NCBI GenBank assembly: GCA_034440155.1
Contig: JAWXBN010000010.1
Location: 1-32,613, forward strand
DNA length: 32,613 bases
Origin: Verrucomicrobiota bacterium
GTDB taxonomy: Bacteria > Verrucomicrobiota > Verrucomicrobiia > JAWXBN01
Direction of reading: 5' to 3'
Made by a program: the position numbers and the translations under genes. The notes under the pieces are model-generated. The model saw nothing but the letters and a program-made list of their open reading frames with translations, ran no database searches and had not been told where the DNA came from. How positions within the stretch are numbered: the first letter of the stretch is position 1; the number at the start of each line of letters is the position of its first letter. Of the stretch, positions 26,055 to 28,248 are shown in pieces.

Positions 26055-26780
26055 ATGTTCGGAGAAATTAAGAATACACAAGGTGAAAAACTCGATTACA
26101 TCTACCACAAGGGTGGTGAACTGAAGCAAATTGTTGTGATCGGCCATGGTGTCACAGGGAATAAAGACCGTCCCTTTGTTGTGGCTCTCGCTGAAGCTCT
26201 CGAAAAGTCAGGGGTGAATGTCTTGCGTTTCTCATTTAGTGGGAATGGCGACTCAGAAGGGAAATTTACGGACTCAACCATCTCCAAGGAGGTCGAGGAC
26301 CTCGGGGCAGTTCTGGATACACTTTCAGGATACGAAATTCTTTATGTCGGGCATAGTATGGGAGGTGCGGTGGGAGTTTTGCGTACCAGCCAAGATAATA
26401 GGATTAATGCCTTAGTTTCCCTTTCCGGAATGGTGGATACGGCGGAATTCTATAAACGGGAATTTGGCATGCTCAAGGCGGGGGAAGGTTTTATGTGGGA
26501 TGAGGAGACTTGTCCGCTTTCCCAAGCTTATGTCGATGACATGCTCCAAATCGGTAATGTCCTGGCACAAGGCGCCAAAATCAAAGTACCATGGCTCCTC
26601 GTCCACGGGACAGAAGATGATGTCGTCCCCATTAAGGATTCAGAAGACATTTTTGCAAAGGCTCATGAACCAAAGGAACTCTTTACGATCCCGGGTTCTA
26701 ACCACGTTTTTTCAAATGAACACACAGCCCCGATGATCGAGAAGGTGGTTCCGTGGGTGAAAAAGCAATTTGCTCATTAA
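26055..26780 (+). CDS. Alpha/beta hydrolase
   Basis: The 241-residue cytoplasmic protein has the standard triad: nucleophile Ser in VGHSMGGAVG (about 103), Asp in HGTEDDVVP (about 195) and His in PGSNHVFS (about 222). HGVTGNKDRPF supplies the oxyanion region. This fits a small esterase or serine aminopeptidase-like hydrolase; the substrate is unknown. The ATG at 26055 is preceded by AGGAGA at a good distance; a nearby ATG at 26048 is out of frame. The last codons contain one copy of the dispersed 9-bp word (26765-26773) and a strong terminator follows. Confidence 0.92.
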   Translation: MFGEIKNTQGEKLDYIYHKGGELKQIVVIGHGVTGNKDRPFVVALAEALEKSGVNVLRFSFSGNGDSEGKFTDSTISKEVEDLGAVLDTLSGYEILYVGHSMGGAVGVLRTSQDNRINALVSLSGMVDTAEFYKREFGMLKAGEGFMWDEETCPLSQAYVDDMLQIGNVLAQGAKIKVPWLLVHGTEDDVVPIKDSEDIFAKAHEPKELFTIPGSNHVFSNEHTAPMIEKVVPWVKKQFAH

Positions 26781-26806
26781 TTTATTTTAATCGCGATGCG
26801 ATATAT

Positions 26807-26838
26807 AAAAAAGCCCCGCAATTTGCGGGGCTTTTTTT
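26807..26838. terminator. Strong bidirectional intrinsic terminator
   Basis: A 9-bp stem (AAGCCCCGC against GCGGGGCTT) around a 5-nt loop is preceded by an A run and followed by a T run, so it can stop transcription in both directions. It separates the alpha/beta hydrolase (plus) from the convergent lipoprotein (minus). The loop and closing base pairs form an exact copy of the dispersed word GCAATTTGC at 26818-26826. Confidence 0.92.
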
Positions 26839-26860: not shown

Positions 26861-27469
26861 TTATTTGGAAATAATTCCATCCTTTGACATGCTGGAGACT
26901 AAAGTCCCGACGAGGGAATTTACCGTTGATTGGGATGCTTGGGGGTTGAATGATTGTGATTCCCCGGACCAGATCAGATTATTGTTTGCGGTGGAATAAA
27001 TTTTTGTCGAAATATAGACCACTTTTATATTTTCAAAGTAGCCGGGGGTTTGCACCATTGTGTATTGGGTCATGACGTAAGGATACATACCGTAATAAAC
27101 AGGTTGCATGTATGTGGCCCCCTGGACATATTCGGTTTTGTGTTCTTCTTTTTCTTTTGTCGTGACGATCACAGCCGAGTAGCGGTTAGCTTTAACTACC
27201 TTTTTAATATTTGATTCAGTGGGGGCTGCTCCATTCAGCGCTACATAACCTTGAGTCGCTGTGATGCCTCGTGAACGTAGGGAGTTCACAAAAGAGTCCT
27301 CAAACATCCTGGCCACAGTACTGTTATTACCCAGACCGATCACGAGGACGTTATTCAGCGCACCGCCGGCATAGCTGGGTGATTTCCAAGTCCCAGTCAT
27401 TTCCGTATTCCCGCATGCGGAAATGAAAAATAGGCCTGCCAATAGAAAGAGTGTTAAGATTTTATTCAT
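26861..27469 (-). CDS. Putative lipoprotein of unknown function
   Basis: The 202-residue protein starts with a lipoprotein signal peptide (KILTLFLLAGLFFISAC, Cys19 in the lipobox), so it is membrane-anchored in the envelope. The mature part begins with TGTWKSPSYAGGALNNVLVI. It has a predicted alpha/beta layout (residues 40-110 with VARMFEDSFVNSLRSRGI) and a C-terminal IYSTANNNLIWSGES segment. This resembles DUF4136-type lipoproteins, where a similar beta-strand reads as LIWxG near the end. That family call is tentative. It is convergent with the hydrolase gene and shares the terminator at 26807-26838. Confidence 0.75.
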   Translation of the reverse strand: MNKILTLFLLAGLFFISACGNTEMTGTWKSPSYAGGALNNVLVIGLGNNSTVARMFEDSFVNSLRSRGITATQGYVALNGAAPTESNIKKVVKANRYSAVIVTTKEKEEHKTEYVQGATYMQPVYYGMYPYVMTQYTMVQTPGYFENIKVVYISTKIYSTANNNLIWSGESQSFNPQASQSTVNSLVGTLVSSMSKDGIISK

Positions 27470-27549: not shown

Positions 27550-28248
27550 TTATTTCAGGTCAAACACCAAGGCTTCTCCTAAATCATCGGACTCAAAAGT
27601 AGCTAAAGACTCCTCTTCGAGGGTTGCTGCATCGCCGGCCTGGAGGCTGAGACCATTGATAGTGAGAGTACCCTTGGATACTTGCACCCATATCCCGCGC
27701 CCGGAAGCGATGGGTAACTTGAGACTTTCACCGGCTGCCGGTTTACACAGATAAATCCGAGCATCCTGCGCAATTTGCGCGGAATCTCCAGCCCCATCAG
27801 CGGAGACGATCAGAGTTAGGTTATCTTTTGCGGCAAATTGCGCGGGTTTCCATTCGGCATAACCCGGGGTGAGTCCGGTTTTCTCGGGATGAATCCAGAT
27901 TTGGAGTAAATGGACGGGGTCTTGGTTGGATGCATTAAATTCACTGTGCCGGCTGCCGGTTCCCGCACTCATCGTTTGGATTTCACCGGGATGAATAATG
28001 CTGCCGTTACCCATGCTGTCATGATGCTGGAGTTGACCGGAAATGACGTAGGTGATGATTTCCATATCTCGATGGGGGTGGAGCGGAAAACCCATGGATG
28101 GCTGGACGATATCCTCATTGATCACGCGCAAACTGCGGTAACCCATGTCTGCCGGATCGTCATAATCAGCAAATGAGAATGAATGATAGGAATTCAGCCA
28201 ACCGTGATCGGCATGGCCGCGTTCACGGGAGGATCTTTTGATCATCAT
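27550..28248 (-). CDS. Pirin family protein
   Basis: Bacterial pirins are bicupin metalloproteins; some have quercetinase activity. Starting at ATG 28248 gives 232 residues, and the metal ligands fall at His57, His59, His101 and Glu103, exactly the numbering I recall for E. coli YhhW. AAAGG lies upstream of this start. A longer frame from 28290 would add 14 residues unlike the family. RERGHADHGWLNSYHSFSF and MSAGTGSRHSEFN are family hallmarks. It is the last gene of a marR-azoR-doxX-pirin run and contains two copies of the dispersed 9-bp word (27770 and 27833). Confidence 0.95.
   Translation of the reverse strand: MMIKRSSRERGHADHGWLNSYHSFSFADYDDPADMGYRSLRVINEDIVQPSMGFPLHPHRDMEIITYVISGQLQHHDSMGNGSIIHPGEIQTMSAGTGSRHSEFNASNQDPVHLLQIWIHPEKTGLTPGYAEWKPAQFAAKDNLTLIVSADGAGDSAQIAQDARIYLCKPAAGESLKLPIASGRGIWVQVSKGTLTINGLSLQAGDAATLEEESLATFESDDLGEALVFDLK

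Follow-up and report, generated by a model that had tools for sequence, protein, structure and literature searches.

The 9-bp word GCAAWTTGC occurs 1,522 times in the 2,763,229 bases of the genome to which the window belongs (the window being the whole analysed stretch of 32,613 nucleotides), compared with 7 occurrences of the reversed word, and its copies are best explained as sites of a putative two-fold symmetric DNA-binding protein, similar in form to the cyanobacterial HIP1. Judged from the sequence, this explanation is given an even chance of being right. Both copies flagged in the preliminary description, one at the end of a hydrolase gene and the other in the terminator behind it, are ordinary members of this set of about 1,500 copies. 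Use of the word in terminators is real but minor and is read here as co-option of an abundant palindrome.

The flagged copies and use of the word in terminators

The following features of the window were considered.

26055–26780, plus strand: alpha/beta hydrolase ORF ending ahead of the terminator (Pfam Hydrolase_4, E = 2.8e-20)
26765–26773, plus strand: word copy 1, GCAATTTGC, in the 3'-terminal part of the hydrolase ORF, read in frame xxG CAA TTT GCx
26807–26838, both strands: predicted bidirectional intrinsic terminator consisting of A-run, GCCCCGCA-ATT-TGCGGGGC stem-loop and T-run (fold and sequence)
26818–26826, both strands: word copy 2, GCAATTTGC, exact centre of the terminator hairpin, reading GCAAWTTGC on either strand
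26861–27469, minus strand: convergent ORF of 202 amino acids without a Pfam match (ORF list and Pfam search)
27770–27778, plus strand: further word copy (word scan of the window)
Starts at 2953, 3240, 3693, 4746, 4974, 11208, 14116, 17038, 18064, 18388, 25512, 27833, 28714, 28849 and 31413: 15 more word copies

The positions of the two flagged copies, both found as GCAATTTGC on the plus strand with 44 bases between them, were borne out. Copy 1 does lie near the end of the hydrolase ORF as described, at a distance of seven bases instead of the eight given. It encodes an in-frame Gln-Phe-Ala of the hydrolase and uses the frame found in 180 of the 404 coding copies of the sample introduced below; as an ordinary member of the coding set, copy 1 does not have to be tied to termination. 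Copy 2 had been regarded as the tip of a strong terminator, and this agrees with predicted folding energies of -21.9 and -22.4 kcal/mol on the two strands, none of 200 shuffled sequences being equally stable on either strand. The predicted loop of the folded segment comprises three bases, so that the word contributes the loop together with three inner pairs on each side. As is typical of intrinsic terminators, a G+C-rich hairpin is followed by a T-run behind a gene. Because the hairpin is located between convergent ORFs and is preceded by an A-run and followed by a T-run, it could act in both directions, and it is a likely two-way terminator. A packaged terminator scan of the window did not report this hairpin, probably owing to the continuation of the stem into the T-run. 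In total, the scan reported 26 sites, compared with 18.2 in shuffled sequences, and two of these sites overlap other copies of the word.

Further analyses were based on a sample of 952,472 bases (34% of the genome) composed of the window and 60 other stretches, in which ORFs and terminators were called by means of simple scripts. The preliminary description had anticipated an excess of the word in terminators across the genome, and such an excess was recovered weakly in this sample: the word is present in 4 of 54 predicted intergenic hairpins (7%), compared with 0.68 expected from its density (P = 0.005), and in 3 of 53 when the window hairpin is left aside. All four word-bearing hairpins (the one in the window, L009:9892-9916, L077:5548-5574 and L085:3123-3149) are exactly centred on the word; by position alone 0.036 such cases were expected (P = 6e-8). 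This null model is overly strict, since the centre of a hairpin is where a palindrome fits best. Among the 26 odd-length intergenic hairpins, four possess a palindromic 9-mer centre, and in all four it is GCAAWTTGC. The same predictor called 71 hairpins inside ORFs, three of them with the word, and must therefore carry a large false-positive load. Across the whole genome, the succession of A-run, word and T-run was found at nine distinct places, of which five represent perfect word-centred hairpins (contigs C4, C10, C67, C83 and C127), one contains the word partly in one arm (C90) and three are not clean hairpins (C73, C85 and C124). Together with the hairpins L077 (C43) and L085 (C51), which this pattern does not capture, the five perfect matches bring the genome-wide number of word-centred hairpins to at least seven, corresponding to approximately 0.5% of the copies.

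Abundance, distribution and symmetry of the word

Within the window, 18 copies of the word were counted, compared with a mean of 0.47 and a maximum of 3 in dinucleotide shuffles. Genome-wide, the density amounts to 551 copies per Mb, with 756 copies on the forward and 766 on the reverse strand, and numbers of hundreds to thousands on both strands are also expected of uptake words. GCAAWTTGC is the most frequent 9-mer of the sample (504 copies). If any centre base is allowed, it is also the most frequent odd palindrome (548 sites), the runner-up being TTTTnAAAA with 136. Of 386 further genomes sampled from the phylum, none came within tenfold of this density, as computed from rounded genome sizes. 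The largest number of copies among them was 135, in a genome of 2.9 Mb; the greatest density, 126 copies in 2.4 Mb, is about one tenth of that of the present genome. In a search for relatives, the closest matches shared only the class with this genome (56 other genomes), so that gain of the word by substitution is not directly visible. The host was placed by means of an Mfd tree of 22 rows, for which 21 of 31 Mfd loci were taken: the Mfd of the window clusters with five rows, of which four are named Verrucomicrobia, with support values of 100/99, and the rows include no cyanobacterium. This grouping points to the phylum Verrucomicrobiota. Among the matches listed in a search of the open-access literature, no report of iterated words of this kind in Verrucomicrobia was found. 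To our knowledge, few bacterial groups carry words so densely iterated.

Most sampled copies (404 of 504) are located within predicted ORFs, corresponding to 0.50 copies per kb of coding and 0.66 per kb of intergenic sequence as delimited by the script-called ORFs. Coding copies avoid the frame that gives Ala-Asn/Ile-Cys (35 of 404) and use the two others. Densities of 0.79–1.11 per kb were determined 3' of stop codons (50-base bins up to 200 bases), compared with 0.19–0.53 per kb 5' of start codons. Convergent gaps are the densest (25 sites in 20,953 bp, 1.19 per kb; P = 0.0012), followed by tandem gaps (40 sites in 73,054 bp, 0.55 per kb) and divergent gaps (10 in 23,928 bp, 0.42 per kb), these counts omitting 22 of the 97 intergenic copies that lie at contig ends. 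Edge-case copies were left out of two further counts, namely three from the analysis of site anatomy in the sample and four from another.

Close pairs of copies are in excess in the 952-kb sample, with 49 pairs at 9–100 bp, compared with 24.2 expected, and 30 pairs with starts 50–100 bp apart, compared with 13.3 expected. Helical phasing of the close pairs in the sample was not found (R 0.04–0.09 for strict copies), and cooperative binding is therefore not supported. Macrodomain-like clustering was not seen, contig counts being mildly uneven (chi-square 77 on 60 degrees of freedom, including one all-N contig and a contig free of the word). The latter, the 18.4-kb contig C27, contains zero copies (P = 6e-5 for that contig, which is the lowest of 61 pieces and was chosen afterwards) and encodes a Cmr (type III-B-like) CRISPR system, a NERD helicase, SIR2 and a WYL regulator; this CRISPR and defence cluster appears to have been acquired. 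No indication of viral adaptation to the word emerged: at least 120 viral stretches were matched and 80 were counted, all pre-selected for two words close together, and those above 5 kb had at most 0.52 copies per kb and no more than four copies each. A longer repeat beginning with CGGAAGAT includes the word and was seen in five copies (L006:272, L009 minus 1095, L070:302, L070:654 and L080 minus 405).

Regarding its anatomy, the site is an odd palindrome with the core GCAA-W-TTGC, which extends to G-M-GCAA-W-TTGC-K-C with weak C and G preferences farther out. In the sample, A (260) and T (244) are nearly equally frequent at the centre, and C or G is rare (44 sites). The flanks mirror each other in coding and intergenic copies alike (404 and 96 copies, respectively): G is found at offset 6 in 63% of the coding and 72% of the intergenic half-sites, accompanied by A or C at offset 5 and a weak C at offsets 8 and 9, and conservation is slight beyond approximately 9 bp from the site centre. 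An asymmetric reading of the 9-mer was abandoned in view of these mirror-image flanks. Spacing of the half-sites is strict, since GCAA-N1-TTGC accounts for 548 sites of the sample, compared with 3–17 for spacings of 0 and 2–7 (reads on both strands halved).

Coupling of the two flanks is expected from RNA or cruciform pairing but not from a dimer that reads double-stranded DNA. At the first four positions outside the word, the flanks were complementary in 159 of 504, 235 of 504, 138 of 503 and 145 of 503 sites, compared with 146.8, 234.5, 130.0 and 137.1 expected for independent flanks, and this independence of the inner flanks favours a reader. At the second outside position, which is the strongest in the flank, no coupling between the two flanks was observed, and the symmetry at this position should therefore originate from the reader and not from base pairing. 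The fifth outside position showed an excess for which we have no explanation (169 of 503, compared with 141.9 expected).

Taken together, the strict spacing, the symmetric flanks common to coding and intergenic copies and the independence of the inner flanks favour a symmetric reader of double-stranded DNA over an RNA element. The two-fold symmetry of the site points to a homodimer, and these features fit the binding site of a homodimeric nucleoid or repair protein, named here as a candidate. Such a protein would read the site as double-stranded DNA, with a benefit that might consist in chromosome organisation, in repair or recombination, or in self-recognition, and this benefit may have driven single-base gains of sites through the core genome. 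Given the self-complementarity of the word, a suitably located copy could grow into a hairpin, and a few copies, that at 26818–26826 among them, would have been co-opted as terminator centres in this way. Counting against a symmetric reader are the excess complementarity at the fifth position, the lack of helical phasing and the asymmetric iterated words of two other families of the class, which are described below.

Alternative explanations and words of other lineages

That the word functions chiefly at the RNA level, as part of terminators, appears very improbable. Word-centred terminators do exist, and the excess complementarity at the fifth outside position would agree with pairing, but 93 of the 97 intergenic copies in the sample fall outside predicted terminators, four fifths of the sampled copies reside in ORFs, and complementarity at the first four outside positions departs by no more than about 12 sites from the value for independent flanks. 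Coding placement and independence of the inner flanks thus largely refute this alternative. Equally hard to credit is an origin from codon or composition bias or from a mobile repeat, even though the longer five-copy repeat does include the word: each frame and each of the two central bases is in use, dinucleotide shuffles of the window yield hardly any copies, the densities of the 386 other genomes of the phylum are far lower, and little sequence is conserved past the extended site. With the exception of a few copies, this origin is already refuted. A further alternative is the proposal of Elhai, according to which highly iterated palindromes of the HIP1 kind result from methylation-dependent mismatch repair. 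The palindromic form, the palindromic extension and the density, which falls into the range of approximately 500–2,500 per Mb indicated for HIPs in the consulted portion of PMC4390886, all match. Moreover, one-off variants are commonest at the outer base (218 reads, 160 of them G to A), compared with 102, 99 and 87 at the inner three half-site positions, as that portion reports for HIP1. The resident methyltransferase able to modify the word, on which the model depends, is what the genome seems to lack: PF01555, PF00145, PF02086 and PF02384 gave no match, and the only match of PF07669, a weak one, is the protein methyltransferase PrmC. No DNA methyltransferase was thus detected among the five Pfam families searched in this genome, which is 97% complete, so that a gene may have been overlooked. 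If none was, the model based on methylation does not apply to this organism; we consider this explanation improbable. HIPs are known from cyanobacteria, and the present host groups with Verrucomicrobia in the Mfd tree.

The alternative with more in its favour, which we regard as possible but not probable, is that the word is a DNA uptake signal, preferred by a receptor of the competence pilus and spread by recombination, with terminator use being secondary. Its copy number resembles those of known uptake words, for which 927–1,965 copies are given in the consulted portion of Kingsford 2007 (PMC1852404). In a profile search of the genome, competence machinery was detected: ComEC exceeded the PF03772 cut-off and DprA (PF02481) likewise its own, and PF00437 (T2SSE) had 12 matches, 11 of them over the cut-off, of which the two scanned are PilB/GspE-like fragments below the equivalog cut-offs. 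With ComEC, DprA and type IV pilus-type ATPases in the genome, DNA uptake is possible, and uptake by means of the word is possible as well. Balanced strands, enrichment in 3' flanks and convergent gaps, co-option in terminators and absence from the defence contig are likewise in agreement, as are the dense asymmetric words in two other families of the class. Counting against the uptake signal, ComEC remained below the TIGR00361 equivalog cut-off (119 compared with 190 bits), the intergenic excess is small, and the word is palindromic with a symmetric extension, while uptake words are stated to be non-palindromic in the part of Bakkali 2007 (PMC1939737) drawn on here. The preliminary description had regarded the terminator placement as what an uptake-type signal would be expected to show. 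The excess in terminators and the competence genes speak for such a signal, but its presence does not follow, since the terminator share is below the 16–57% known from uptake words, as measured in a related way, and since one palindromic copy, not two inverted ones, forms the hairpin.

Other lineages of the phylum were surveyed in 52 further genomes; of 80 fetched stretches, the 18 shorter than 9 kb were omitted and 62 were kept. In family f9, the asymmetric word AAGATCGACA was found 142 times in 80 kb of genome G043 (62 and 80 copies on the two strands; L262, L290, L291 and L292), dispersed within and between predicted genes. In G008, which belongs to f9 as well, this word is less frequent (33 in 120 kb; L104 and L243-L247). 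In family f25, the asymmetric word CGGGAACGC occurs 35 times, dispersed, in 20 kb of genome G184 (L274), with 14 and 21 copies on the two strands; it is preceded by G in 74% of cases, and CGGGAACGT is also frequent in this stretch (19 copies). Both AAGATCGACA and CGGGAACGC look like uptake words. The occurrence of asymmetric words in two families hints at a possible uptake-type process in the class, and this raises the chance that the GCAAWTTGC palindrome serves a related purpose. More broadly, this verrucomicrobial class might keep lineage-specific iterated words (GCAAWTTGC, AAGATCGACA in f9 and CGGGAACGC in f25) as marks of self-DNA for uptake or recombination, a generalization which is tentative and rather doubtful. 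If it were true, uptake-type signalling would have an origin outside the Pasteurellaceae and Neisseriaceae, here with a symmetric and apparently methylation-free mark. The two asymmetric words of other families furthermore render the uptake question testable across one class. A further word, CACGGTCA, was found 24 times in 20 kb of L098 (G002), with 22 copies on one strand, and probably belongs to a repetitive protein or gene family.

Comparison with known systems

Binding sites of symmetric nucleoid proteins such as Fis and MatP are odd palindromes with A/T-rich or degenerate centres that are read by homodimers. As sites of a putative symmetric protein, GCAAWTTGC sites are similar to these in being odd palindromes with an A/T centre, and they are more uniform and more numerous than the sites of Fis and MatP as we know them.

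Features shared with the uptake words of Pasteurellaceae and Neisseriaceae (USS and DUS) comprise the copy number, presence on both strands, co-option in terminators, the preference for convergent gaps and the presence of competence genes. USS and DUS are asymmetric, however, and their terminator hairpins are often built from two inverted copies, as described in the consulted portion of PMC1852404, whereas one palindromic copy forms the hairpin centre here. The same portion reports uptake words in terminators at 16–57% of likely operon ends in Pasteurellaceae and Neisseria, above the share of predicted hairpins determined for the present genome, the two measures being different.

The resemblance to the cyanobacterial HIP1 (GCGATCGC) and alternative HIPs extends to the short palindrome, its occurrence at hundreds of copies per Mb, the palindromic extension, its rank as the dominant word of the genome and, for HIP1, the gathering of one-off variants at the outer bases. 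Retention of HIP1 in cyanobacteria is still unexplained; one published model invokes DNA methylation, and selection on HIP1 is the topic of Xu et al. 2018 (cited through PMC6604393). According to the consulted portion of Elhai 2015 (PMC4390886), every cyanobacterial genome with such a word carries at least one putative fitting methyltransferase. The present genome is apparently methyltransferase-poor, four DNA methyltransferase families being without a match and the fifth represented by PrmC only. The presence of a palindrome so similar in form, where none of the five families yielded a DNA methyltransferase, would suggest that methylation is dispensable. Unlike HIP1, GCAAWTTGC is an odd palindrome with a W centre and another sequence, and it is hosted by a member of the Verrucomicrobiota.
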